DNA from: Prinia subflava
Lineage: Eukaryota > Chordata > Aves > Passeriformes > Cisticolidae
Assembly (NCBI RefSeq): GCF_021018805.1
Contig: NW_026960611.1
Coordinates: forward strand, 1,736,001 to 1,800,000
Reading direction: 5' to 3'
Length of the DNA: 64,000 nucleotides
Shown here: piece after piece, positions 9,964-41,366 of the stretch
How the letters are laid out: each line of letters starts with the position of its first letter
How positions within the stretch are numbered: the first letter of the stretch is position 1
Position numbers and translations under genes: made by a program
Notes under the pieces: model-generated
What the model was told of the DNA's origin: nothing
What the model saw: the letters and a program-made list of their open reading frames with translations, nothing else
Databases searched by the model: none

Positions 9964-10873
9964 CCTAGTAACACATTCCCTTGTGTCCTGCTTTAGGACA
10001 AATTTGGGAGAAAACCTCCAAAGGGGACCTCTCTCCCCACCCTAGAAAGCAAAACCATGTGGCCCCTCCCCCAACCAGTTTGGGAAAGACTTCCTCTGAG
10101 AGAAGTGGGAAAAAAAAACCCCTGTTTATTTATTGGCAGAGCATTCCCCAGCTGAATAAATTGAACAATACCAGATTACAAATTCAGAAAAAGTCTCTCC
10201 TGAAATGAACAGGGCTAATGCCTTTATTAATATTCAGTTCTTTATTAAACTGATCAGCTGGGTGGTAGAGCCCAACTGAGTTTTTCCACGCAGCTGTAGC
10301 AATCCAGAGGAGCAGGAAATGTCCCAGTTCGTCACTCAGCTGCAAGCTGTAGGTGCTAGATCCTTGTTCCCAAGGGAACAGCTAGAAGCTCTCTCTGGTC
10401 AACCCCAAGAAGGCAGAGTGGTGCAGGTCTGTTGCTGAAGTGCAAAGCAGTACACATCAGCTCTTTACCCTCGGGGAAAAACCTCCAGAGTTTCTCTCTG
10501 AATCAGTCTCTTGAGCTGGCCCAGTCCCACTCCAGTCAGACTCTTAATAGATCATGGCAAGTCTTCAAACCAGGCCAGGGGGTGCGTACACTTCCTCCTC
10601 GGCCAGGGCACCATCCAGTTCCCCTCCACTGCATCCAGCTCCCCATACTGGGGTACTTTTCCTCTCAAAGAACCCTCCCAATATTCACAGGGTCAGTTTT
10701 ATTTGCATATGCATCCTTCCTGGTCGCTGCAGCATTCCTGCCTAAAAAGGTAGTCACAGCAAAACAATAACAGGGCCATTTAGACAGTAGCCGCTCTTTT
10801 TCACATTCTAATGATGTAGGAAAATGCCACAGGGCAACTTCCTCTCATCTTCAAACTTGCTGGGGTGTCAGTG

Positions 10874-11153: not shown

Positions 11154-11909
11154 TGAAAAGAACAGGGCATATGCCTTTATTAATATTCAGCTCTTTATTA
11201 AAGTGATCAGCTCATTATTAAAGTCATCAGCAGGATTGCAGAGTCCGATCAGAGTTTTCTACGCTGCTGTTGCCACCGTCCGAAGGAGCAGGTGCTGTCC
11301 CAGAGGATGCTGAGTCCTTGTTCCCATAGAAACAGCTGGGAGTTCTCTCTGGTCAACCATCAGAAGGCAAAGCAATGGCAGTCAGCTCTTTGCCCTCAGG
11401 GAAAAGCTTTGAGAGCTTCCCATTCTCTGCTTAAGTTGCTTCAGCTGGCTGGTTCCCATTCCATCCGAACTCCTCATAGGTTATGGTGAATCTTCAAACC
11501 AGGCCAGGGGGTGCATCCACTTCGTGCTCGGCCAGGGCATGATCTAATTCTCCTCTGACGCCTCTAGCTTCTTGTCCTGGGGTGCAGTTTTCCTAAAAAA
11601 TCCTCCCAGGATCCACCAGGGTGGTTTTATTTGCATATACACATGCATATGCATTTGTCCTGGTCGTAGCCGAGGTTACTCCTGCTTCTGAATGAGGTAG
11701 TTACAAAGGACAATAGGGCTATCTAGGTGTGGGCAGCTTCTTTTCACATTCGAATTAGGTAGGGAAAAGTTGCCAGGCAACTTTCCTTCAGGGCAGCTCT
11801 CCCTACTCAGATTGGCTGGGGTGTCGGGGGGTTACTCTAGCCAGGAGAGGGTCAGTTGTGGGGTGGGTTGTTTTTAGGTTTTTTTTTTTTTTCCCTTTCG
11901 TTCCTAACA
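11154..11909 (-). repeat. 3' LTR of the edited class I provirus
   Basis: 756 bp, TGTTAGGAACG...TTCTTTTCA on the minus strand. Several aataaa-type signals occur near its 3' end (plus-strand 'tttatt' between 11177 and 11222). A purine tract on the minus strand (AGAAATAGAGGAGGGA, about 11911-11927) abuts it as polypurine tract. CC is not depleted here, in contrast to the interior. Confidence 0.88.
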
Positions 11910-12113
11910 AATCCCTCCTCTATTTCTTTGATCAGGCTGTAGCCCGCATCAACTTGCAGCCTCCTACTGAGTATCCTCTCAGTAGACACTGCTCAAAGAA
12001 ATTTAGGAGTTCTCTAGGGGAATTGCCCAGCGGGAGACTGAGCAGATGTGGGAGGGGTGCTCTTAAACTTGTTTTTTTTATCAGGAATTAAGACACACTC
12101 GATAGCAATTTAA

Positions 12114-12310
12114 CTAGGGATAGGTCTCTTGGTCCCTCAATTGCTGTCTACGTAGAAGAGGTGGCAGGTGGTCCTGTTGGGTCTGGTCTGGCATCAGGGG
12201 CGGTACTGGTCCTGTGACTCCGGTAACGTGGGTCTGACTTCTTTCTGGAGTTCGCACTGCAGTATGTGTAGTGAGCAGCACCTGGAAGGGACTTTGATAT
12301 TTTTTCTCTT
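12114..12310 (-). pseudogene. pol: pol fragment: integrase C-terminal domain
   Basis: A minus-strand frame open over about 60 codons contains PFQVLLTTHTAVR, the conserved C-terminal GPY/F-type block of gammaretroviral integrase. The provirus at 54841-61483 has the related PFQVLLTTFTAVKV at the same place. The frame ends at a TAG (12114-12116). Only about 190 bases separate it from the polypurine tract, so no env exists. Its 5' side is cut directly by the CR1 at 12316. Confidence 0.85.
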
Positions 12311-12315
12311 CTTAG

Positions 12316-13915
12316 TTACAGAATTACAGAATCACTAGGCTGGAAGAGACTTCTAGGTTTAAGTCTAACTCTAATTAAACGATGTCACTAAGTGCTACAT
12401 CTACTCTCTTCTCACCCACATCTAGGAATGGTGACTTTACTACTTCTCAAGGCAGAACATTTTTTTTTTTTTGGCACCGCTGAAGACTGTGTCTTCTTGT
12501 TCTATCAGTTGCTGCTTGAAGAACAAGACTAACTCTCACTTTACTATAACTACCTTTCAGGAAGTTGTAGAGTGATAAGGTTACTTTTGAATCTCTTTTT
12601 CTCTAGGCCAAACAACTTCAGCTCTTCCAGCTAGCATTTATAGGGCTAGTGTTCTAAGCTTCTCACTAGCTTTGTTGCTTTCTTTTGACACGCTCAAGCA
12701 TCTTAATGTCTTTTTTAAACTGAGGGGCTCAGAACTGGGCACAGTACTCAAGGAGTGGCCTCACCAATGCTATGTGCAAGGAAAGGATGACCTTTCTGCT
12801 CCTGCTGGCCACATTATTCTCAATACAGCCTACGATATTGTTAGCTTTGGCCATCAGGGCATACTGCTGGCTCATATTTAGTTGGTTATCAACTAGCACT
12901 TTCAGGTCTTTTTCTGCTTGGGTACTGTCCAGCCACACTACCTTCAACTTGTAAGGTTGCAGGGGGTTATTGTGGCTAAAATGCAACACCTGGGATTTGG
13001 ATTTATTAAACATTATCTTATTGGATTTTGCTTATCTATCTAATCATTTTAGGTTTCTCTACAGAGTCTTCTTACTCTCTAACAGATGGACACATGCTCT
13101 CAGCTTAGTGTCGTCTGTAAATTTACTAATGAAGGACTCAATACTTTCATCTGTGTTATTAATAAATATAATAAATAGAACTGGCTTCAGCACAGACTTT
13201 TGAGGGACACCACTGGTGGCTGGTTGCCTGCTGGATGCAGCACTATTCGTTACTACTCTTTGGGCTTGGGTATCTAGCCAGTTCTTAACTTAGCAAAGAG
13301 TGTTCTTGTATAAGCTGTGGGAAACAGTGTCAAAGACTTTGCTGAAGCCTAAACAGACAACATATACAACTTTTCATGTATCCACCAGGTGGGTCACCTG
13401 GTCAGAGAAGGAGGCTAGTGGGGTCGAACACTACTTACTTCTCTTAAGCTCATGCTGGCTGGGTCTGATACTCTGTCTATCTCATCAGTGCTGCACAATA
13501 GCTCTCAGTATAAACTGCTTTATTATCTTACTCGGTACTTTGGTCAGGCTAACTGGCATATAATTACTAGGCTCTTCTCTACTTTTTATGAATGGGAATT
13601 ACATTGGCTAGCACTCAGTCATCTAGAACTTCACTAGTGAGTTGAGACTGTTGGTAGATGATGGAGTGGCTTTGCAAACTTATCTGTCAGCTCTCTTATC
13701 TCTTTGGGATGGATTTCATGTGAGTGGGCATTCAAGCAAATTACTACTTCTCTGACTACTTTGTTTTTGATAACAGGAGGACTATTCTGTTCTTTAAAAA
13801 TATCTACTGACTCAGTATGACCACTGTCTTGAAGACAAGCTGTCTTCTCACTAAAGACAGCAGCAAAACAAAGCATAAAGCACTTCTGCTTTCTCTTTGC
13901 AATTACTAAATTTCT
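12316..13915 (-). mobile_element. CR1 LINE inserted in pol, strongly CC-depleted
   Basis: The 3' tail (plus-strand 'ttacagaattacagaatcac') starts at 12316. Minus-strand frames match CR1 ORF2: NKSKSQVLHFSHNNPLQ and LKVLVDNQLNMSQQ at 12729-13013, and VVREVVICLNAHSHEIHP at 13634-13876. The 5' limit is blurred, between about 13900 and 14030. Compared with the CR1 at 29009-30340, the second C of plus-strand CC pairs is replaced by T again and again. I counted 22 CC in 12481-13860 (1380 bases) against 27 in 29461-29700 (240 bases) of the other copy. Coding capacity is lost. Confidence 0.9.
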
Positions 13916-14041
13916 TCTTACTTTGAATCATGTTCTAGCTTGGCTAGGGGTTCTCTAGTGAGAAACTGCATAGGGTGATTAATTCTAAGTCACTTGTGTT
14001 CATTATTTTAGAGTCAGTCAACTACTGTTAAGTCTTCTGGC

Positions 14042-14174
14042 TTAGCAATTTCTCTTTTCCAGGATCAACCTTTGGACTTCTTTTATTAGGGTAGCTGTTA
14101 CTGCAACTGTTTGCAGGCAAGTTGGCCATCTCTTAGCTACTGGGTCTAGTAGTTTTGAGAGGTAGACTATAGAC
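14042..14174 (-). pseudogene. pol: pol fragment: reverse transcriptase connection
   Basis: An open minus-strand stretch of about 43 codons includes IVYLSKLLDPVAKRWPTCLQ followed by TVAVTATLIKEVQRLI, which aligns with VAYFSKQLDHVAQGWPGCLK at about residue 43 of the second pol frame (58790-60916) of the intact provirus. That is the junction between polymerase and RNase H. Polymerase sequence upstream of it is deleted, since capsid sequence lies only about 120 bases away (14325-14402). Lysine and arginine replace expected glycines, as G-to-A editing would cause. Confidence 0.8.
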
Positions 14175-14280
14175 TTTGATTCTTCTCACTATCAGGGATC
14201 TATAGTCTCTCATGCTTTGCTTTTTTCTTGGCCTGAATTTTAGCTGGTGTCTATTAAGGGCATCTTATGGTCTCTTGGGT

Positions 14281-14325
14281 GTCACAGTCTATTTTTATTT
14301 ATTTATTTATTTATTTATTTTCTTT
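14281..14325. repeat. (TTTA)n microsatellite
   Basis: About seven tandem TTTA units on the plus strand within the gag remnant of the class I provirus. Confidence 0.9.
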
Positions 14326-14402
14326 ATATCTTTATTTTTGCCATCTGGACTATCTGGGCTTCTTCTGGAGTGAACAGAACCATTAGAATAGAGTTCAACT
14401 CT
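14325..14402 (-). pseudogene. gag: gag fragment: middle of capsid
   Basis: Twenty-five open minus-strand codons contain ELNSILMVLFTPEEAQIVQM, which resembles the capsid segment ahead of the 'TPEE' turn in class I Gag. It stops abruptly at the insertion point of the 14403-18877 element; the matching upstream half lies at 18884-19060. The reading frame is continuous across the insertion if one TSD copy is removed. Confidence 0.7.
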
Positions 14403-14737
14403 TGTTGCTATGGTTTTCGGACGGCACAGAAATAACAACATGACTCTCCATGATGGTAAAGATGAGAGCAAACTTTATTCTTCTACATTCTACTTTTATA
14501 GAGTAGTTCGGTACAAAGAACATGATTGGTTATTCAGCGTCTACACTCTTTAGTAAACATTTCTTTCCAGTAAACACGTTGGAAAAACACCACCTGCAGA
14601 TGGTTTCTCACTTCCCAAGGTTTGTTTGAATTCCTCCTTTAGATTTCTCAGGCTAACATGAGAAAGTTGCTCGTCTGCCTTTCACACAGACACTAGCAGA
14701 GCCTGAAGCCTAAATTCAGACCAATGTCAGGCCCACA
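14403..14737 (-). repeat. 3' LTR of non-coding element copy 1
   Basis: Begins TGTGGGCCTGAC and ends CCATAGCAACA on the minus strand (canonical TG...CA). Poly(A) signal at 14474-14479 (tttatt on plus). The polypurine tract TAAAAGGGGGAGA abuts it at 14738-14750. Confidence 0.9.
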
Positions 14738-14750
14738 TCTCCCCCTTTTA
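14738..14750 (-). promoter_or_regulatory. Polypurine tract of non-coding element copy 1
   Basis: TAAAAGGGGGAGA on the minus strand directly upstream of the 3' LTR; it would prime plus-strand DNA synthesis. The second copy has a near-identical tract at 38908-38920. Confidence 0.85.
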
Positions 14751-15173
14751 GTTTTTGCTGAGGGCGGCGTCTGTGTCTGTGTCCTCTCCTGCAGGGCCCT
14801 TGCAAGAGAAAAAAAGACAAACATGACACCAGAAGTCCCATTAGTAATCAACCAATTACTAAACAGAACTTTCATTGGGCACCAACTTAAATGGTCAGGG
14901 AAGTTCTGTGGCATTTGGTGTTGACCCTTCATAACCATGTCCATGCACCAGCGTCAAGCTTAGCTATTTACTAATTCTAATACAGAAAAAAACAAACCAT
15001 CATTAGCCTGCTCAAAAATGGCAGTCTAATTTGTCAAGATTCATCACTCTAGGAATCATCCTTTCAGATAACAAGGGCTTTTTCTGCCTTTTAGCAAAGG
15101 ACAGTGGTCCTTGCATTACACCTGCAACCGCAAACTGATTTAATTTTCCAATTATTTGGACAACCTGAGTTGA

Positions 15174-15176
<3 letters not shown>

Positions 15177-15219
<43 letters not shown>
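15177..15219. repeat. Poly(T), about 43 bases; poly(A) in the element's sense strand
   Basis: A long homopolymer inside copy 1. The second copy has about 24 T at the same place (39343-39366), so the tract is an inherited part of the element. Confidence 0.95.
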
Positions 15220-15223
<4 letters not shown>

Positions 15224-16861
15224 GCAAAAATGCATGTGATGTTTGAAAGGGCAAAGACCCATTGCAGGATGTGCAGGACTGGACCACTGGTCACTCAATT
15301 GGCCCATGATATCTGTAGGATGTCACCTAGAAAGAAAAAATAAGAATAATAAAATTAATAAAAATATCAATAAAAAGATATCTGACTCCAAAAAAAAATC
15401 TACATGATCCCAAAGACCAGAAAGGCAAAAACCACAAAGTGAAATAACAGCCCTTAATAACTACAAAACATACACCGAAGGCACGTGAAATATTACCTAA
15501 AATACAACTACATCTATGTAGGAAACTTAAATGAAACAACATCTACTATAAAATTAAAACACATGAAAAGAAAAAGTCCATTGAGACAAGATGTTGATCC
15601 TTAGCATCACTGGATGTCTTCTTGAAGTCTGGAGCAGGGAGTGACTCGAGGATGATCGATGAAAACAGGACCATGCTGCTGACACAGGACTTCTGTTGTC
15701 TCCATAACTTCCAACCACATGGTCATCTTTGCAGTCTATATGACAGCCACTAAGGCTATGCAATGTCCCTTTTCACTCCTCAAAGGTGATGGGTAACACG
15801 ACTGCTCAACCTGCTAATGATAAAACACAGGCACATCTTCTCCTTAAGTTAACAAACTTGTCAGGCTCCATTGTCTAAATTCAACATCCAGGTTTCATAT
15901 TTACTCTTTCTTCAGGTTCATAACATAAATGTTACATTGTTACTTGTTATCTTTTTGATAATAATTTTGATCAGCCCAGGAACTGCAAAAGCTGAAGTGC
16001 TTCTTTTCCAGTGAGATCCTGTTCATCCTTCCCGGGCAGGAATTCCAGGTTCACCTCAAAGATCAATTCAGCTATTATATTTAAAGGTCAAACTGTTGAG
16101 TCAAATAACTCATATGTAATTTTTTGCTAAAACATCTGGGCAAACAGGCAATTCCCATCCAGAGAGAGCCAAGGCATGGCCAGTGCCCAGCTCTAACTGC
16201 AGAGGAATCCCTTACACCAATTTTAAAAACAAACTTCTTAAAAATCTTATAATAAGAAACTAATATGGTAATTGACACCTCCTAAATTTGTCAGGGTAGA
16301 GATGCTCTGAGCTCAGCAGGCTCTTGAGATGGTCTGTGACCAGGATTGGAACTGCATCCCAAACCGTCAGGACAGAGGAGGCATTCTTACAAACTCAGAT
16401 AACCTTGTCTGGAAATCTGAAAATATTTAGAAAATCATGAATGCAAAGCTAGCATAGACAGCTAGAAAACAAGGAAAAATTCTTGGCTGACACGTGTCTT
16501 ACAGGCAATTATAGACAAATAGCAAAGTACATGAGAAGAAGAAGCAGAAGCAGCAGCAGTAGCAGCAGCCGGCTGTAGAACTGTGATAACTTTATCATAT
16601 CAGTGAATTCACATCAAATATCTTAAAAACTGAGATAACACTTAAAACTCATAACTGATGGTTATACTGTAGAATTATTAATAATACTTGTGTTATCTGC
16701 GAAAGGCAACAAAGGTTGCTTATTTGTTTTTTGTATTTCTTGTCATTTTTCTTGTATTATGAACAGGCATTTAAGGCTCCAATTCTGTTCACAGAGACGC
16801 CTCGAGAAGAAATGTTTTGAGGGAGGGGGGGAGGGAAAAACCCAAACAAAAATCAACTGTC

Positions 16862-17150
16862 CCTCTAAAGGGAAAAGCTTCTGCTCACCTCAAAGGCGAC
16901 GAAGCTATTTGGCCCTCCCTCAGTGGGGCTTTGGGGGCTCAAGGGCCCCAGGGCCGCCCCGCGGAGCTGGGGGAAATCCAAACAAACGTGGCCCCCATTT
17001 TTCTGTAAAGGAAAAAGCTTCTGCTCACCTCAAAGGCGACGAAGCTATTTGGCCCTGCCCTGAGTGGGGCTTTGGGGGCTCAATGGCCCCAGGGCCGCTC
17101 CGCAGAGCTGGGGGAAATCCAAACAAACGTGGCCCCCATTTCTATGTAAA
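16862..17150. repeat. Tandem duplication, period about 140 bp
   Basis: Two consecutive near-identical units: 'gcttctgctcacctcaaagg' occurs at 16877 and again at 17017, and 'aaatccaaacaaacgtggcc' closes each unit. The second copy of the element has a single unit near 41050-41205. The region lies in the GC-rich part of the leader. Confidence 0.9.
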
Positions 17151-17229
17151 AAAAAAAAAAATTCAAGCGAAGCAACTCCCACAGCATTATCCGCTGTCTA
17201 GAGGAACGGCAAGTTCCTCATGCCCTATT

Positions 17230-17780
17230 CGCAGCCAGCCGCTTGGCCCGCAGGGAAGGAGTGGGGGAGCGAACCCCGCCGCTCATGGCGGGGGGAAGGG
17301 GGAAAAGGAGCGAGGAGACCGCTCCTCCGTTCCTATGACGACTTGCTGTGCAAATTCACGCGGGAAGGAAATGGAGGGGAAACGGAGAGGGGACAACGGA
17401 GCGGTGCTCGGCGGAGCTCAGCCCGCCGCCGCCCTGCCGCCGCCTGTCTCAAGCGGAGAGCCGGTGGCCCCCCCTCCCCGCCCTGGGGGGAAGGGGGGGG
17501 GACGAAGAGGCAAAGCTGCTCCAAGCCGCCCGTCTCAGCGGCACCGCGCGGGGAAGGGACCTGCGCGCCCGCCCGACCCGCGCGCCTGTGGGGAGGGGGG
17601 GAACCGAGTACGGAAAAACGAGAGAGAGAGATTTTGCAGCCGCTGCAGCGCCCTGGAGCAGGGCGGGAGAAAAACCGAGCGAGAGAGAGAAGGCAGGGAG
17701 ATCGCATCCGTGCTGCCATGCCTCTGTCTCACCGCACCCCCACCCCGCACAAGGGAAAGAACAAAGTTAAAACACAGAGA
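17230..17780 (-). other. GC-rich leader of non-coding element
   Basis: A CpG-rich, purine/pyrimidine-patterned block downstream of the primer-binding site in sense orientation. It gives long open frames on both strands through composition alone; none shows a domain. It could hold the RNA packaging signal, by position only. Confidence 0.5.
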
Positions 17781-18522
17781 CACAGAGAAAGACAAGCCCT
17801 AAACTCACACAGGCAATCATAAAACAAGCACAGGTAACGTTAAAAGCATAAAACACTCATAAAGTGAACTTTTCGCCCTGAACACACAGAAGGATACAGA
17901 GGGATCAAAGGTTTTCGATCCCGGTCCCGTCCGCAGGCCAGATGCTGGGCCACGCCGACGAGGAAAGGATCGTTGTGTCACACTCTGGGTCGGAATCTGA
18001 CCAGCTGTATCTTGGACGGGCTAGCATCTTTTAAAGTCACGGTACAGACTAGTCGCAGTGGATGATAGCGCAGGAACCACTGCCAGCCATCCGTGGTATG
18101 AAGAAAGGAGAAGGAAAAGCCAAGGAAGCGCCGTCTCTGCCGGCCGGGAGAGGCTTACAGACGCTCGCTTTGATCTCGGCCAGACAGAACCGAAAGAGGT
18201 CGGGGGAGTGCTGGGCAAGCTGTCGGCAGCGAAGAATTCCAGCTGCTCTTGTCAGGAAAGGCACAAGCTGTCCTCTCTCAGGAGAGGGGTTCCCCAGGTT
18301 TTCTGGAACCTCTGCCCGGCTGTCTTTTCTAGAAATTAAAGTCCAGCTGTGCTGGGTGCCGTCCGACCTGCTGTCTTTTGGCAGGATTGATCTTTTTCCA
18401 TGGTCAGCAGGACCAGCATTCTTTAGAAAAAACGTGGAGATATTTCGCTTACCTCTCTGAGGAGGCAGGTAGAATTTTCAAGCTTTGCTGCATGAATCAG
18501 TCCCGGCTGCGCTGAACTTCTT

Positions 18523-18540
18523 CGAAACGTCAGGTCACCA
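18523..18540 (-). promoter_or_regulatory. Primer-binding site of non-coding element (Trp-like?)
   Basis: On the minus strand, two bases from the 5' LTR: TGGTGACCTGACGTTTCG. The first eight bases equal the tRNA-Trp complement used by alpharetroviruses, and GACGT follows after a 2-base shift; the rest diverges. The tRNA assignment is tentative. Confidence 0.5.
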
Positions 18541-18542
18541 GA

Positions 18543-18877
18543 TGTTGCTATGGTTTTCGGACGGCACAGAAATAACAACATGACTCTCCATGATGGTAAA
18601 GATGAGAGCAAACTTTATTCTTCTACATTCTACTTTTATAGAGTAGTTCGGTACAAAGAACATGATTGGTTATTCAGCGTCTACACTCTTTAGTAAACAT
18701 TTCTTTCCAGTAAACACGTTGGAAAAACACCACCTGCAGATGGTTTCTCACTTCCCAAGGTTTGTTTGAATTCCTCCTTTAGATTTCTCAGGCTAACATG
18801 AGAAAGTTGCTCGTCTGCCTTTCACACAGACACTAGCAGAGCCTGAAGCCTAAATTCAGACCAATGTCAGGCCCACA
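18543..18877 (-). repeat. 5' LTR of non-coding element copy 1
   Basis: 335 bp with no difference from 14403-14737 that I could find. It would start transcription of the element on the minus strand. Confidence 0.9.
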
Positions 18878-18883
18878 AACTCT

Positions 18884-19060
18884 CTCTAGGAATAACTATT
18901 TGGCCTCAGAAGCTGGTCTAGCTGGTTAGACATTCCAGCAGGGTCTACTACTAAACCCTCCCTCTTTCTTAGAGTCCTGGAGTTCAGGGGCTGTCAAAGG
19001 TGCATTTATAAACTTGATCTTTTTAATTAATCTCTAGGAACTTTTCTAAGGGGAAAGACC
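18884..19060 (-). pseudogene. gag: gag fragment: start of capsid
   Basis: In a minus-strand frame KFINAPLTAPELQDSKKE is readable, and in a neighbouring frame DPAGMSNQLDQLLRP. Both resemble the start of the capsid in class I endogenous Gag proteins. Several TAG stops interrupt it, as expected if tryptophan codons were edited. It continues across the 14403-18877 insertion into 14325-14402. Confidence 0.65.
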
Positions 19061-19990
19061 TTCTCTGTTCTCGGTGCTTTGGATCAGGTATTGTAATATA
19101 GCTCTTCTTCTAAAACACCAGGTAGAGGGAGTAGTAGTGGAGACAGAGGCTAAGAGAAACACTGGGCAGGGGTGGTTTCCACTCCCAAGTGGGGGAAGTG
19201 AGGGTATCACAATTGGTGAAGGGGAACTGTTGGAGAGGTTAAGGAAGAGACTGGAGGTACAGCTGGGGTAAGAGGGAGAGTTTGCATATTTTCACATTTT
19301 CATTACTTATAGTTTTCTAGCCAGCAGGCTGCATAAAATAGTTGTTTTACATCAGGGTCTTCTTGGGCTTAGAGATGTTGGTTTAACTGGTTACACATTT
19401 ACTGAATTCGAGTCTTACACTATGACTACTCTCTTAGTAATTTTAATCTCAGCTATATTCTTTTTCTATAATATGTCAACTTTATCTGGACTCTTCGTAG
19501 TCTTTTAAGGATCTTATTGGTCTGACAATTGCTCCAGGGGCCTGTTAGGGAGAATCTTCTTTACTGTCCTTTTGGAAGGGTCTGCTTGTTTACTATAACA
19601 TCATCTCAGTTTTTAGGCCTTAAAATAAAAGGAAAAACGAAGTACTTTAACAGTGCCTCAATCTGAACTGGAATATTCTGATGGACAATCTAAACTTTAA
19701 GATAACTAAAGCTTGTCTGATCTCTCACAACTACACATTCTGAATCTCATCGCTGAACATTAAAGGGTCAAAAACTAATTTCTTGGCACCCCACTTTTGA
19801 CACTTTTTCTTCTGTCTCTTTTAAAACTCTCTCTCTTGGCTATGACACTTACTACTATGACTCACACCCATTGTTTTCTGCTAAGGGTATCTCTCTCTTA
19901 CTTTTCGACTTAAGTCTGAACTTCTTGCTAGGCTTTCTAGGCTTGGACCCCTGCTGAGTCTTGTTTGAACTCTCTAACTTCACAAGGCTT
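19061..19990 (-). pseudogene. gag: gag remnant: proline-rich region and matrix, many stops
   Basis: Upstream of capsid in sense direction, 19080-19300 translates to a proline- and leucine-rich stretch (LLPQLYLQSLP) like the p12-type linker of gamma-like Gag. Further upstream, 19300-19990 should be matrix but is riddled with TAG and TGA and I cannot align it. CC is rare on the plus strand (about 9 in 19321-19860) although GG is common. Assigned mainly by position. Confidence 0.5.
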
Positions 19991-20199
19991 AGGAGGCTTG
20001 AACTCCCTGCCAGGCTGAGGTCGAACGTCCTGCCGAGCCTCACACCTGAACTCCAGCCGAGTCCCCTTTGCATCCCTTTTTGTTTATCTGGCTGCTCTTT
20101 TTGCCTGCCTTTTTTGCTCATAAATCTTGCTTGCCTTCTTGCTTGCCTGTCTGCTTTCTTGTCTGTTTGCTCACCTTTATACCTGCTTTCCTGCTTGCT

Positions 20200-20640
20200 A
20201 ATGATATCTTACTTGCTTGATGGGATATGCTTAAACTCTCTTGGGGACAGCCCGCCTGCCTCCTGGGACATCGTGCCCTATCCTGCCAGGGACTTCCCAC
20301 TTGCCCTACCAGGGATCTTCCTTGCCTGCCTGTCAGGGCATCCTGCCCTGCCCGAGACTTTCTACCTGCCCTGCCGGGGACTTTTTCTCACCTGCCTACT
20401 GGGACATCTTGTTTTGCCATGCCGGGGACATTACCTTGCACCTGCTCTGCCAGGGATCTTCTCTTGTCTGCCTGATGAGGCATCTTGCTGTGCCAGGGAT
20501 CCTCTTTCAATTGCCTTCTGGAGCAGCCCTGCCAGGGACCTCTCACCTGCCCTGCTGGGGATCTCCTCTCATCTGCCTTCTGGGACAGCCCTGCCAGGGA
20601 CCTCTCACCTGCCCTGCCGAGGATCTTACCTCACACCTCA
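20200..20640. repeat. Degenerate tandem repeats, about 60 bp, in the provirus leader
   Basis: Units built on 'ccctgccagggacctctcac' recur; the two best copies (near 20517 and 20579) are about 62 bp apart and nearly identical, and older copies fill the left side. They make long plus-strand frames (312 and 260 codons) with no domain, which I treat as chance. The tract lies in the 5' leader of the class I provirus, outside the CC-depleted zone. Confidence 0.8.
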
Positions 20641-21060
20641 AGAGCCTTTGCACGCTCGACGGGGCCCTCCCCCAAGGAGGCGCCTCAGTCACTCTTCTAT
20701 GCCATTCGCTTCCCGCCCGTTCTCGGCCGGCACCCTCTCGGGAGACTGGAAACGCGATACTAGGGGGTCCACTTTTGCTCTGGGGGTCCGAGCTGCCGGC
20801 CCCCATCTCACTCAAGCACTCATTCACTCGCCTCCCATTTCCGCCACAGATTTATCTCACCCATCTGGTGTTTTTCTGCGTTGCTTGGTCTCACGCTGAT
20901 CCCAGGGCCGATCCAGTGCTGATCCCAGGGCCGATCCAGTGTTCTTCTGCGCTGCTTGGTCCAACGCTGATGCCAAGGTCCGGAGGTAGCCAGCAATTCC
21001 CACGGATCCCTCGAAGCAGATGATCATCCTCTTCGGGGGTGGTCCTTTGTGGGCGTGGCT
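20641..21060 (-). other. Leader of the class I provirus next to the primer site
   Basis: GC-rich, not CC-depleted. It includes a 21-bp direct repeat ('ctgatcccagggccgatcca') near 20898 and 20919. No coding feature is evident. The leader as a whole is about 1 kb, long enough for a packaging signal. Confidence 0.5.
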
Positions 21061-21078
21061 ATCCCAGACGAGTCCCCA
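21061..21078 (-). promoter_or_regulatory. Primer-binding site, tRNA-Pro-like
   Basis: TGGGGACTCGTCTGGGAT on the minus strand, two bases from the 5' LTR. It differs at two positions from the tRNA-Pro complement typical of gammaretroviruses (tRNA sequence from memory). Both differences are transitions. Confidence 0.85.
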
Positions 21079-21080
21079 AT

Positions 21081-21835
21081 TGAAAAGAACAGGGCATATG
21101 CCTTTATTAATATTCAGCTCTTTATTAAAGTGATCAGCTCATTATTAAAGTCATCAGCAGGATTGCAGAGTCCGATCGGAGTTTTCTACGCTGCTGTTGC
21201 CGCTGTCCGAAGGAGCAGGTGCTGTCCCAGGGGATGCTGAGTCCTTGTTCCCATAGAAACAGCTGGGAGTTCTCTCTGGTCAACCATCAGAAGGCAAAGC
21301 AATGGCAGTCAGCTCTTTGCCCTCAGGGAAAAGCTTTGAGAGCTTCCCATTCTCTGCTTAAGTTGCTTCAGCTGGCTGGTTCCCATTCCATCCGAACTCC
21401 TCATAGGTTATGGTGAATCTTCAAACCAGGCCAGGGGGTGCATCCACTTCGTGCTCGGCCAGGGCATGATCTAATTCTCCTCTGACGCCTCTAGCTTCTT
21501 GTCCTGGGGTGCAGTTTTCCTAAAAAATCCTCCCAGGATCCACCAGGGTGGTTTTATTTGCATATACACATGCATATGCATTTGTCCTGGTCGTAGCCGA
21601 GGTTACTCCTGCTTCTGAATGAGGTAGTTACAAAGGACAATAGGGCTATCTAGGTGTGGGCAGCTTCTTTTCACATTCGAATTAGGTAGGGAAAAGTTGC
21701 CAGGCAACTTTCCTTCAGGGCAGCTCTCCCTACTCAGATTGGCTGGGGTGTCGGGGGGTTACTCTAGCCAGGAGAGGGTCAGTTGTGGGGTGGGTTGTTT
21801 TTAGGTTTTTTTTTTTTTCCCTTTCGTTCCTAACA
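21081..21835 (-). repeat. 5' LTR of the edited class I provirus
   Basis: 755 bp. It differs from 11154-11909 at about three bases plus one T in a T run. It would drive transcription toward lower coordinates. Confidence 0.88.
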
Positions 21836-29008: not shown

Positions 29009-30340
29009 GTCACAGAGTCACAGAATCACAGAATAATGAGGTTGGAAGAGACCTCTAAGATCATCAAGTCCAACCTATGCCTTAACACCTCAACTGGACT
29101 ATAGCACTAAGTGCCATGTCCAGTCTTTTTTTAAACACATCCAGAGATGGTGACTCCACCACCTCCCTGGGAAGACAATTCCAGTTCTTTATTACTCTTT
29201 CAGTGAAAAATTTTTTCCTAATATCTAACCTGTACCTTCCCTGACGTAGCTTGAGACTGTGTCCCCTTGTTCTGTCAGTTGCTGCCCGGTGGAAGAGACC
29301 AACCCCCACCTGTCTACAATCTCCCTTCAGGAAGTTGTAGAGAGCAATAAGGTCACCTCTAAGCCTCCTCCAGGCTAAACAACTCCAGCTCCTTGAAACA
29401 TTCCTCATAGGGCTTGTGTTCCAAGCCCCTCACCAGCCTTGTTGCCCTCCTCTGGACACGCTCAAGCATCTCAATATCCTTCCTAAACTGAGGGGCCCAG
29501 AACTGGACACAGTACTCAAGACGTGGTCTCACCAGTGCCGAGTACAGGGGAAGAATGACCTCCCTGGTCCTGCTGGTCACACAATTCCTAATGCAGGCCA
29601 GGATGCCATTGGCCTTCTTGGCCACCAAGGCACATTGCTGGCTCATATCCAACCGGCTGTCGACCAGCACCCCCAGGTCCCTTTCCGCCTGAACACTGTC
29701 CAGCCACACTGTCCCCAGCCTGTAATGCTGTAGGGGATTTTTGTGGCCTAAATGTAGAACTCGACACTTAGACTTATTAAACTTCATGCTGTTGGACTCT
29801 GCCCAACCATCCAACTGATCTAAGTCTCTCTGCAGAGCCCTCCTCCCTTCCAATAGATCAACACAAGCTCCCAGCTTAGTGTCGTCTGCAAATTTACTAA
29901 TGAAGGACTCAATGCCCTCATCCATGTCATCTATAAAAATATTAAATAGAACTGGTCCCAGTACAGACCCCTGAGGGACACCACTGGTCACTGGTCGCCA
30001 GCTGGATGCTGCACCATTCACCATCACTCTCTGGGCCCGGCCATGCAGCCAGTTCCTAACCCAGCGAAGAGTGCTCCTGTCCAAGCCGTGGGCTGCCAGC
30101 TTATCTAGGAGTATGCTATGGGAGACAGTATCAAAGGCCTTGCTGAAGTCTAAATAGACAACATCCACAGCCTTTCCTGCATCTACCAGACGAGTTACCT
30201 GGTCATAGAAGGAGACCAGGTTGGTCAGACATGACCTACCCTTTGTAAACCCATGTTGACTGGGTCTGATACCCTGGCCATCTTGTAAGTGCTGTGCGAT
30301 ACCACTCAGTATGAACTGCTCCATTATCTTAGTCATCAAG
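29009..30340 (-). mobile_element. CR1 LINE, 5'-truncated, 1.3 kb
   Basis: Minus-strand CR1 ending in the repeat (ATTCTGTG)n at 29010-29034. It holds the C-terminal half of the reverse-transcriptase ORF and lies within the LTR 28264-30412. It is the best-preserved CR1 here and serves as the unedited comparison for 12316-13915. Confidence 0.95.
29082..30339 (-). pseudogene. CR1 ORF2 reverse transcriptase, C-terminal part, frameshifted
   Basis: CR1 ORF2 encodes the endonuclease-reverse transcriptase that copies the LINE RNA at a nicked target. The first frame (30339 to 29359) covers fingers-palm: [50 protein letters not shown], the catalytic FADD in [10 protein letters not shown], then the thumb ([28 protein letters not shown]). 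A frame change near 29359-29408 leads to the last segment ([15 protein letters not shown] to KRLDMALS) ending at 29082. Endonuclease and N-terminus are missing through 5' truncation. It is inactive. Confidence 0.93.
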
Positions 30341-36583: not shown

Positions 36584-37478
36584 ATATATGTTATGACTGA
36601 ATTCTCAGTGAGTGTGGATGCTCCAAAGGCTGCCCCTGTGTGGCTGCGGTAGCCCGAGATGTGGCAGGGTTATGTCTCCAGAACTCCTGAGACTGATGTC
36701 GCAGCCCCTCTGCCTGGGGAAGCGGCGGCCCCGACAGCTGGCTGAGAGCTGTGGCTGATGGCGCAGCCCCTGTCCCCGAGGAGACAGGCGACCCCCATCC
36801 CTGGAGGGGATGGGCAGCCATCCTGCCGGTCCTGCATTCCTACATTAGCATGTTAAAAGCAAAGTGTCCTAGCTGTGCCTACTGTAATCAGAGCTTACCT
36901 AGTTTCCGTCCCCCATGCTGCCTACTTGAGGAGGGCATATGCAAATAAGACGAACACACAGCACACTGGGAGAGAGTTCTTTGGGGATGAAAGGCACCCC
37001 AAAATGAAAGACTGGACACAGTGAAAAGATCCAGGTGGTGCCCTGGCTGAGGAAGAAGTGGATGCACCCCCCCCTGGCCTAGTTCGAAGACTCGCCATAA
37101 TCTCTTAAGAGTCTGAACAGAATGGGAGCAAGCCAGCTCAAGTGACTGAGACAGACAATGGGAAGCTCCCGTTTTTCCCTGAGGGAAAAGAGCTGACATC
37201 TGCTGGGCTGGACTCTAGTGACAGACCCCTCACTGCTCTGCCCTCTGATGGTTGACCAGAGAGAGCTTCTAGCTGTTCCTGTGGAGACAAGGACTTGGCA
37301 CCTACTGCAGGCAGCTGAGTGAAAAACTGCAACAGCGCCTGCTCCTTCGGATTACCCCAGCAGTGTGAAAAACTCTGATTGGATTCTGCAATCCTGCTGA
37401 AAACTTTAATAAAGAGCTGATAACTTTAATAAAGAGCTGAATATTAATAAAGGCATATGCCCTGTTCTTTTCAATATA
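36584..37478 (+). mobile_element. Solo LTR, 885 bp, 5-bp TSD
   Basis: From TGTTATGACTG (36589) to CTTTTCA (37473), with ATATA at 36584-36588 and 37474-37478; the low-complexity TSD is only moderately convincing. Three aataaa signals crowd the 3' part (37400-37460). It is the plus-strand relative of the second-level LTR of the nest (10201-22121), and its 3' end matches the LTRs of the class I provirus. Confidence 0.8.
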
Positions 37479-38575: not shown

Positions 38576-38907
38576 TGTTGTTATGATTTTCGGACGGCAG
38601 AGAAATAACATGTCTCGCGATATGATGGTGAAAATGAGAGCACCTTTATTCTTCTAAATTCTACTTTTATAGAGTAGTTTGGTACAAAGAACATGATTAG
38701 TTATTATTCTACACCCTTTGTCAACAACCTTGCCAGTAAACATGTTGGAAAAAACACCACCTGCAGATGGTTTCTCACTTCCCAAGGTTTGTTTGAATTC
38801 CTCCTTAAGATTTTCCCAGGCCAGAATGAGAAAGTTGCTTGCCTGCCTTTCACACAGACACTAGCAGAGCCTGAAGACTAAATTCAGACCAATTGTCAGT
38901 ATCCACA
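38576..38907 (-). repeat. 3' LTR of non-coding element copy 2
   Basis: TGTGGATACTGAC...CATAACAACA on the minus strand, with the same layout as copy 1 and several small indels. It is followed by the polypurine tract (AAAAAGGGGAAGA on minus) at 38908-38920. Confidence 0.88.
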
Positions 38908-41294
38908 TCTTCCCCTTTTTGTTTTAGCTGAGGGCGACGTCTGTATCTGTGTCCTCCCCTGCAGGGCCCTTGCAAGAGAAAAAAAAGACAAACACGACAC
39001 CAGAAGTCCCTTTAGTAATCTAACAATCACTAAATAGAACTTCCATTGGGCACTGACTTAAAATGGTCAGGGAAGTTCTCTGGCATTGCTGTCAGAGCCT
39101 TCACAATCACATCCATGTGCCAGCGTCAAGCCTAACTGTTTACTAATTCCAATACAGAAAACAAAACATCATTAGCCTGCTCAAAAATGGCAGTCTAATT
39201 CGTCAAGATCCATCACTCTAGAAGTCATCCTTTCAGGGAACAAGGGCTTTTCCTGCTTTCTAGCAAAAGATGGTGGTCCTTGCATCACACCTGAAACAGC
39301 AAACTGGTTTATTTTTCCAATTATTTGGACAACCTCGTTGACTTTTTTTTTTTTTTTTTTTTTTTTAATGTAAAAGCATGCAATCATGATGGGGCAGAGA
39401 CCCACTGACCCATTGCAGGATGTGCAGGATTGGACCATTGTTCACTCAATTGGCTCATAATACCTGTAGGATGTCACCTAGAAAGAAAGAATAAGAAAAA
39501 TAAAATTAATAAAAATATCAATAAAAGATATCTGACTCAAAAAAAAAAAAAAAATCTACATGATCCCAGTCAACACAAGGCAAAAACCACAAAGTGAAAC
39601 AACAGCCCTTAATAACTACAAAACATACACCGAAGGCACGTGAAATACTACCTAAAATACAACTACATCTATGTAGGAAAATTAAATAAAACAACATCTA
39701 CTATAAAATTAAAACAAATGAAAAAGAAAAGGTCCATTAGAGCCAAGATGTCGATCCTTGGCATCACTGGATGTCTTCTTGAAGTCTGAAGCAGGGAGTG
39801 ACACGAAGAACATCGATGAAAACAGGACCATGCTGCTAACACAGGACTTTTGTCGTCTCCATAACTTCCAACCACATGGTCATCTTTGCAGTCTATGTGA
39901 TAGCCACTAAGGCTATGCAATGTCCTTTTTCACTCCTCAAAGGTGCTGGGTAACACGACTGCTGAACCTGCTAATGATAAAACACAGGCACTTCTTAAGT
40001 TAACAAATGTGTCAGGCTCCACTGCCCTAAACTGGTAACTTGTCAGCCTCCATTGTCTAAATTCAACATCCAGGTTTCATAATTATTATTTCTTCAGATT
40101 CATAACATAAATGTTACATTGTTGCATGTTATCTTTTTGTTAATAATTTTGATCAGCCCAGAAACTACAAAAGCTGAAGTGCTTCTTTTCCAGTGACGAC
40201 CTGTAACTCCCTTCCGGGTGAGAGCCCCAGGTTGACTCCAAAAATGAATTCAGCTATTATATTTAAAGGTCAAATTGCTGAGTCAAATAACTCATATGTA
40301 ATTTTTGCTAAAACATCTGGGCCGACAAGTAATTCCCATTCAGCCAGAGCCCAGGCATGGCCAGTTCCCAGCTCTGACTGTACAGGAATCCCTTACACCA
40401 ATTTTTAAAACAAGATTCTTAAAAATCTTATGATAAATACTAATATAATAATTGATACCTCCTAAATTTTTCAGGGTAGAGATGCTCTGAGCTCAGCAGG
40501 CTCTTGAGATGGTCTGTGACCAGGATTGGAACTGCATCCCAAACCGTCAGGACAGAGGAGGCATTCTTACAAACTCAGATAACCTTGTATGGAAATCTGA
40601 AAATATTTTTAAAAAATCATGAATGCAAAACTAGCATAGACAGCTAGAAAACAAGGAAAAATTCTTGGGTGACACGTTTTACAGGCAATTATAGACAAAT
40701 AGCAAAGTACATGAGAAGCAGAAGCAGCAGCAGCCGGCTGTAGAACTGTGATAATTATCATATCAGTGAATTCACATTATGTAATCAATATATCATCAAT
40801 AAATATCTTAAAAACTGAGATAACACTTAAAACTCATAGCTGATAGCTATAATGTAGAATTAATAATAATATTTGTGTTATCTGCAAAAGGCAACAAAGG
40901 TTGCTCATTTGGTTTTTGTTTTTCTTTTCATTTTTCTTCTATTGTGAACAGGCATTTAAAGCTCCAATTCTATTCACTGGAGATGCCTTGAGAAGAAAAT
41001 TTTTGAGGGAGGGTGGGAGGGAAAAACCAAACAAAGAATCAACTCATCCCTCTGAAAAAACTTCCGCTCTCCTCAGAGGCGGTGGACGCTATTTGGCCCT
41101 GCCCTGAGTGGGGCTCTGGGGCTTCAGGGGCCCCAGGGCCCCCCCACATGGCTGCAGCTCTGTGGGAGAGGAGGAAATCAAAACAAAAGAGGCCCTCATT
41201 TCTCTGTTAAAAAAACCTTTACCTTAAATTTCAAGCGAAGCACCTCCCACAGCGTAAAAGCTGTCTCGAGGCGGTGAACACCCCATTTGCCCTT

Positions 41295-41366
41295 TTGCTT
41301 GCCTGCCTTTCACACAGACACTGGCAGAGACTGAAGCCTAAATTCAGACCAATTGTCAGTACCACA
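41295..41366 (-). repeat. Remnant of the 5' LTR of copy 2
   Basis: Seventy-two bases matching the U3 start of the LTR ('cctttcacacagacactggc' to 'cagtaccaca'). The junction with the interior lies at 'cccttttgctt'. Confidence 0.85.

Follow-up and report, generated by a model that had tools for sequence, protein, structure and literature searches.

The question raised by this locus is when, and in which genome, a retroviral body came to lose most of its GG dinucleotides: in the provirus that we see now or in an ancestor of it. The sequence studied is a 64-kb stretch of the genome of Prinia subflava (Cisticolidae, an oscine passerine; NW_026960611.1), here called the window, and positions without a contig label are positions in this window. 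It contains, at 11154-21835 on the minus strand, a provirus with two nearly identical long terminal repeats (LTRs) and a body carrying a fragment of a CR1 element. A sequence-only reading of this DNA had proposed that the body was hypermutated in a burst, within one reverse-transcription cycle of this same provirus. Our analysis retains the hypermutation and moves it back in time: very likely, a core that had been hypermutated and carried a CR1 gave rise to a non-autonomous family, which was spread in trans by an unedited relative.

Strand and context of the changes

The dinucleotide CC is rare in the plus strand of the provirus body. The hand counts of the sequence-only reading (22 CC in 12481-13860, 6 in 13881-14400 and 9 in 19321-19860) came out exactly the same on recount, with GG still common in the same three stretches (79, 29 and 26). 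When the ratio CC/(CC+CT) was followed along the 64 kb in 254 intervals of 500 bp, 12 of the 13 lowest values fell wholly or mostly in the provirus body, the remaining one (16251) being in a nested insert, and the lowest interval, 13501-14000, has 1 CC against 64 CT. Expected counts were obtained from 1000 mononucleotide shuffles: the stretch 12121-14402 has 37 CC for 92.6 expected, a value reached by none of the shuffles. For the gag part at 18878-19725 the depletion is marginal by this test (18 CC for 26.0 expected, reached by 26 of the 1000), so the editing of this part rests on the comparison with an unedited gag. CC is not depleted in the nested insert (14403-18877) or in the leader, in agreement with the sequence-only reading.

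The CR1 fragment could be aligned with an unedited CR1 copy of the same window. Read in the viral sense, this alignment has 129 G>A against 28 A>G changes, with C>T at 31 of 217 and T>C at 29 of 260 sites. Sorted by the next base, G has become A at 82 of 113 GG, 23 of 82 GA, 11 of 58 GC and 13 of 72 GT sites, that is 82/113 before G against 47/212 elsewhere (Fisher p=8.5e-19); this excess in GG is what the sequence-only reading had suggested looking for. In the reverse comparison, where a focal G is A in the reference, there is no such preference (GG 3/21, GA 8/78, GC 10/57, GT 7/70). Among the 113 reference GG pairs, 55 are now AG, 23 AA and 16 GA, and 12 are kept as GG. As a control, the insert stretch 14403-17020 was compared with its sister at 38576-41219, and G>A lies there between 5 and 11% in all next-base contexts and on both strands.

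For gag, the reference was the unedited element found on contig C40. The focal gag has GG>A at 32 of 56 sites and other G>A at 37 of 162 (p=4.5e-6), with GG>A at 3 of 18 in the reverse comparison, and its sense strand shows a weaker skew than the CR1 (G>A 69, A>G 34, C>T 58, T>C 42). Two shorter pieces gave GG>A at 8 of 15 and other G>A at 5 of 18 (14176-14295, against the C40 gag), and 4 of 7 and 1 of 12 (18888-18971). The strand-biased mark in GG (CC in complementary DNA, cDNA) that the earlier reading ascribed to deamination of the viral minus strand is thus found in the alignments. The changes are those expected if, in minus-strand cDNA, the second C of CC had been deaminated, and the CR1 fragment was already inside the viral genome when it was edited.

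Two other causes were considered. Decay of CpG is ruled out, as the signal is one-stranded and lies before G. An ongoing mutation of the region is not seen in the nested insert, which is undepleted; this is weak evidence because the insert is young, its LTRs being identical.

Copies of the edited body in the genome

The genome scanned for copies, and also for deaminases, was that of Prinia subflava itself (1.12 Gb, 537 contigs). A search with 18878-19990, in which 40 of 125 candidates were scored, returned the focal copy and at least 39 other places at 93-97%; with a young edited copy as query (40 scored of 126 candidates), all scored matches were at 97-100%, and 22 places were new relative to the former search. 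With a cut-off of 93% identity to an edited query, the edited body lies at a minimum of 62 places, spread over 21 contigs, and 12 more places were matched by the unedited query only, at 76-78%.

All 30 gag-side copies that were fetched, the focal one included, are depleted in CC (19-26 CC and 124-138 CT per about 1.1 kb), and they share the same edits. A is found in 90% or more of the 30 copies at 32 of the 56 reference GG sites of gag, in 10-90% at 3, in a few copies at 7 and in no copy at 14; of the 35 sites edited in more than 10% of the copies, 32 thus reach the 90% mark. The CR1 stretch, compared in 28 copies, behaves in the same way: of its 68 reference GG sites, 47 are A in at least 90%, 7 in 10-90%, 1 in few and 13 in none. 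Changes private to one of the 30 gag copies comprise 13 G>A, only 4 of them before G, and 25 C>T, and there is therefore no sign of continuing editing. A young burst is represented by 20 of the 30 copies, whose gag sequences agree at 98-100%.

The sequence-only reading had itself named the same changes in many family members as the observation that would speak against it, and this is what was found. What it said of the editing mark, the strand and the context stands; what it said of the timing does not. A single burst in the last reverse-transcription cycle of the focal provirus would agree with its almost identical LTRs and with the strand and context of the changes, and we nevertheless give it practically no credence, since the depletion is present in 30 of 30 copies and the edited gag sites are nearly all common to them; that all these places are segmental duplicates of this one provirus, which would rescue the idea, is unlikely with 62 places spread over 21 contigs. 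The edits being inherited, the alike LTRs, which had been taken to show a burst in this provirus, would instead reflect a recent insertion of the focal copy from an already edited parent.

The distribution of these elements is uneven: 42 of the 74 places found are on contigs C36, C26, C42, C38 and C45, four of which are of known size (less than 11 Mb), and contig C53 (103 Mb) carries 6. The five contigs are possibly sex-linked or unplaced sequence (compare the available part of PMC8310711).

Architecture, ends and unedited relatives

The provirus has TG..CA ends and a target duplication of 4 bp (CTAT) flanking both LTRs, as found in the ERV1 (gammaretrovirus-like) class of endogenous retroviruses (ERVs), for which the 4-bp rule is given in the accessible portion of PMC6523648. 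Over 756 columns, 4 substitutions and 1 single-base gap separate the two LTRs, close to the 4 differences in 755 estimated earlier. The features are as follows.

11154-11909, minus strand: 3' LTR, unedited, with CTAT outside; GG>A against C40 at 3 of 39 sites, measured on the 5' LTR
11910-12120, minus strand: 3' tail adjoining the LTR, unedited, near to the unedited C40
12121-12315, minus strand: edited tail piece, tested over 12121-12290
12316-13900, minus strand: fragment of a CR1 long interspersed element (LINE) in viral sense, edited, aligned to CR1 29254-30334; 5' limit approximate
13901-14402, minus strand: edited remains of gag and pol (reverse transcriptase side), deletion-joined, with matches to C40
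14403-18877, no strand assigned: later nested LTR element, unedited, with identical LTRs and an AACTCT duplication
18878-19725, minus strand: edited gag part; of its 44 reference GG sites, 31 read A in 90% or more of 30 copies
19726-19990, minus strand: start of gag, with almost no editing (1 of 12 GG sites); G>A apart, 85-93% identical to C40
19991-21080, minus strand: leader, unedited by comparison with C40, with a tandem-repeat unit and a primer-binding site adjoining the LTR
21081-21835, minus strand: 5' LTR, unedited; GG>A against C40 at 3 of 39 sites
29009-30340, minus strand: unedited CR1 copy, reference within the window (aligned stretch 29254-30334)

In the edited core, the sole minus-strand open stretch of at least 100 amino acids is a 100-amino-acid piece of the CR1. 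The LTRs of the nested element (14403-14737 and 18543-18877, 335 bp) are 100% identical, and a sister of this element, 85% identical, lies about 20 kb away in the window (38576-41366). Older relics akin to the provirus LTR are present at 10201-10840 (about 66%) and 37039-37476 (about 73%), the former lying some 300 bp from the 3' LTR. The leader repeat beside gag (19991-20079) is a single unit in the focal copy and forms arrays of 1 to at least 1.8 kb at loci L019, L023, L034 and L041, the unedited element being among these. The priming site adjoining the 5' LTR (21056-21081), which looks tRNA-Pro-like, is slightly different in the unedited element (L069) from that in the focal copy.

The edited core extends from about 12121 to 19725, minus the nested insert, and not over 12316-19990 as first proposed. 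On the 3' side, 11910-12060 is 95.4% identical to C40 with GG>A at 1 of 11 sites, 12069-12121 is 88.7% identical (0 of 1), and 12121-12290 is 74.7% identical with GG>A at 5 of 6 and other G>A at 3 of 23. On the other side, A is present in 90% or more of the 30 copies at 31 of the 44 GG sites up to 19725, but at only 1 of the 12 above it, and the leader (19991-20633) matches C40 at 94.4% with GG>A at 3 of 80. Between these, 19726-19990 is short of CC (8 for 18.9 expected, reached by 1 of 1000 shuffles) although it is unedited relative to C40: in 60-bp bins down to 19740, only 1 of 11 GG sites of the unedited relative is A in the focal copy, and the low CC up to 19990, previously counted as editing, is unexplained by it. 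Editing of the APOBEC3G type follows a gradient set by reverse transcription, with its maximum adjoining the polypurine tract. No such maximum is found next to the 3' LTR (GG>A 1/11), and the limits of the core are step-like; a later exchange of the ends can account for the missing gradient.

The unedited element at C40:680840-691915 shares with the focal provirus the LTR (about 91-92.4%) and the leader, and has open frames of 1185 and 302 amino acids, read by eye as pol and gag, which suggest that it may be competent. Its gag frame has 5 stops in the compared piece, and a count of tryptophan codons turned into stops was accordingly not used. A search with this gag (41 rows from 40 scored of 145 candidates) gave at least 5 full unedited copies at 99-100%, C40 included, and 1 partial copy at 95%, the other 35 rows, at 34 places, looking like the edited family. 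The unedited ends of the focal provirus are 5-8% from this element and the edited gag about 22% even without G>A, so that the ends were probably exchanged by recombination. The last 24 LTR bases are identical in the 4 elements compared.

An element on contig C52 (116962-124967; L039, L040, L071, L072) is a recombinant, in which an unedited pol is flanked by gag and CR1 of the edited type. Two pieces of its pol are 98.1% and 98.3% identical to C40, with CC/(CC+CT) of 0.41 and 0.42, and its gag and CR1 are 95.2% and 95.1% identical to the focal body, with ratios of 0.14 and 0.13. Because this one element joins the two types, edited and unedited genomes probably met in one reverse-transcription complex. 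A helper was also sought in the flanks of the LTR matches at C36:2521292, C45:116981/126609 and C41:832597 (L043-L048), where no match to leader, gag, pol or tail was found; L043 holds a further LTR match and simple-repeat matches.

Template switching is probably the simplest account, judged from these alignments, of the differing histories of ends and core. It is possible, though somewhat unlikely, that leader and LTRs were instead spared during the editing itself, being single-stranded only briefly, as in an APOBEC3G-type gradient. Low editing of the LTRs is indeed expected when the minus strand is edited, and other, mostly older edited copies have CC/(CC+CT) ratios of 0.45-0.50 (6 leaders) and 0.40-0.53 (5 3' LTRs). 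However, the 3' tail upstream of the LTR should then be the most edited part and is not, the identity to C40 steps down from 95% through 89% to 75% where editing starts, and the nearest relatives of core and ends differ: the focal copy and that at L010 are 97.9% identical in gag and 84.1% in the 3' LTR. This gag and LTR comparison took in 16 of 20 other copies; among the 20 fetched 3' pieces, nothing was matched in L051, L052 and L055, and L054 lacked a match to the LTR. An exchange of ends explains the spared leader and LTRs better than timing within one cycle.

That the edits were built up stepwise on the family stem, in several rounds of reverse transcription or through repeated recombination between genomes with different edits, we hold to be quite unlikely. 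One event and many are indistinguishable when all lie on the stem, and some GG sites vary among the copies (3 of 56 for gag and 7 of 68 for CR1); against this, gag up to 19725 and CR1 have similar shared edited fractions (31/44 and 47/68), and private changes show no excess of GG>A. Highly improbable, too, is a low-CC composition of the family arising without any enzyme, from slow mutational bias or selection. Some retroviruses are skewed in composition and 19726-19990 is poor in CC without editing, but the captured CR1, which has a separate LINE history, is changed at 73% of its GG and on one strand only, the LTR and leader of the same elements are unskewed, and the private changes reveal no ongoing bias.

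Several observations weigh against an edited core spread by an unedited relative and should be set beside it. Sense C>T is also frequent in gag (58/225), and the G>A rate of 22-23% at other G means that part of the GG>A is ordinary divergence. The CR1 reference is about 14% diverged outside G>A (143 other differences, 1057 sites). The preference for GG is unclear in 14065-14177 taken alone (2 of 5 against 6 of 20 other G, relative to the C40 pol), and the short piece 12121-12290 has more A>G (13) than G>A (8). With G>A left aside, C40 and the edited gag differ at 222 of 996 sites, about 22% (partly in a badly aligning stretch, 19080-19260), so that C40 is a cousin of the edited lineage rather than its unedited parent. 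Among the elements compared, none combines an unedited body with the CR1 junction, a negative that no completed search aimed at such copies stands behind. Identity to C40 is only 87-89% in the LTRs of the young edited copies, whose helper may therefore be another lineage; the LTR starts are not comparable in 2 of the 4 elements, where the matches are cut. Finally, the editing could have taken place in several early rounds.

With these points taken into account, the founding of a non-autonomous family by a hypermutated core may be pictured as follows. An ERV1-type element with a CR1 fragment would have been heavily deaminated at CC of its minus-strand cDNA, presumably in one event, at the cost of about 70% of its sense-strand GG sites. 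The edited core (12121-19725 without the insert), encoding no long protein, would have become the body of a non-autonomous family, whose later copies would have been made in trans by a related unedited element sharing the LTR end, the leader and the priming region. Template switching with the unedited lineage would have given the core its unedited ends and, in one element, also an unedited pol. The focal provirus would be one recent copy, with inherited edits.

Candidate deaminases and known systems

We infer an APOBEC-family enzyme as the cause of the CC marks. The sequence-only reading had remarked that birds lack the mammalian APOBEC3, which still leaves candidates. The APOBEC_N profile (PF08210), run over the Prinia genome, gave 6 exon matches, one on contig C23 and five within 24 kb on contig C3. 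Four exons were fetched, carry an HxE...PCxxC-type motif and were read as APOBEC2 (C23), AID and two APOBEC1-like domains, no separate search for APOBEC3 having been made. The C3 cluster (20407399-20430728) comprises two APOBEC1-like single-exon matches, L076 and L077, and three exon matches in AID-like position, one of which was read (L079). For L076, the APOBEC1-like assignment is supported by how its best matches are named, and one deaminase exon is 100% identical to a Prinia subflava APOBEC-1-like protein over 91% of the query; AID and APOBEC2 were assigned by eye and with Pfam. The two APOBEC1-like domains near AID-like exons are thus candidate editors, as far as sequence can tell. The part of PMC3880073 available to us describes lizard and zebra finch APOBEC1 as the only non-mammalian APOBEC1 homologs identified so far, and lizard A1a as a potent DNA mutator.

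A retroviral genome hypermutated by an APOBEC-type enzyme is commonly regarded as finished. Here, a body lacking about 70% of its GG sites is present at no fewer than 62 places in one bird genome, for at least 5 full unedited gag relatives. We would suggest, tentatively and with doubt, that host editing turned a retrovirus into a parasite, the edited form outnumbering the unedited one about ten to one or more. If so, a core without genes and without most GG targets had nothing further to lose to the deaminase, and the defence would work indirectly, by creating competitors for the viral machinery. For the study of editing more generally, an edited composition together with near-identical LTRs need not mean an event of that insertion, and a copy-by-copy tally of editing load can score a single event repeatedly.

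Knisbacher and Levanon (2016) are said to be the source for APOBEC-type editing of songbird LTR elements. Strong editing of LTR elements in birds, chiefly in oscine passerines such as the zebra finch, is described in the available sections of PMC6497032 and PMC6523648, and table 3 of PMC12548423, also available in part, gives 392 G>A in 5,486 bp for the zebra finch element TguERVl1_I-int. Our elements are alike in being G-to-A hypermutated LTR elements of an oscine bird; in those sections, however, the editing is described as edited copies, whereas here one edited core is common to at least 62 places. Closer in this respect are the mouse proviruses Mtv17 and Mtv23, a hypermutated provirus with one further copy, given in the same part of PMC12548423 as the sole example among Mtvs. 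They too show a hypermutated provirus re-copied along with its edits, but by a single re-copying, with mouse Apobec3 and in another context, while the Prinia elements form a family of dozens. In human immunodeficiency virus type 1, hypermutated genomes add, via co-packaging, very little to later variation according to the accessible text of PMC4871359; here the hypermutated body is the majority form. An amplified hypermutated family was not among the literature matches, judged by title and start of abstract, which is no proof of absence.

The nearest parallel in organisation is with cattle ERVs, 85% of which are reported, in the portion of PMC10924933 at hand, to be non-autonomous D-type elements, with evidence of mobilisation by, and recombination with, the C-type; MusD/ETn and KoRVA/RecKoRV are also named there. 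The likeness lies in few competent and many non-autonomous elements with common ends, in recombination between the types, and in a core replaced by an old retroelement piece. The Prinia family has no intact genes, yet has the LTR end, the leader and the priming region in common with its relative, and the C52 element is a recombinant with the unedited type. It differs from the cattle D-type in that its core is a hypermutated retroviral body with a CR1, and in that its mobilisation in trans is deduced from sequence. The case thus joins deaminase editing with ERVs that are parasites of parasites, and makes it testable whether editing feeds non-autonomous families. The separate ingredients were already known; what is new here is that the D-type-like core is itself a hypermutated genome.

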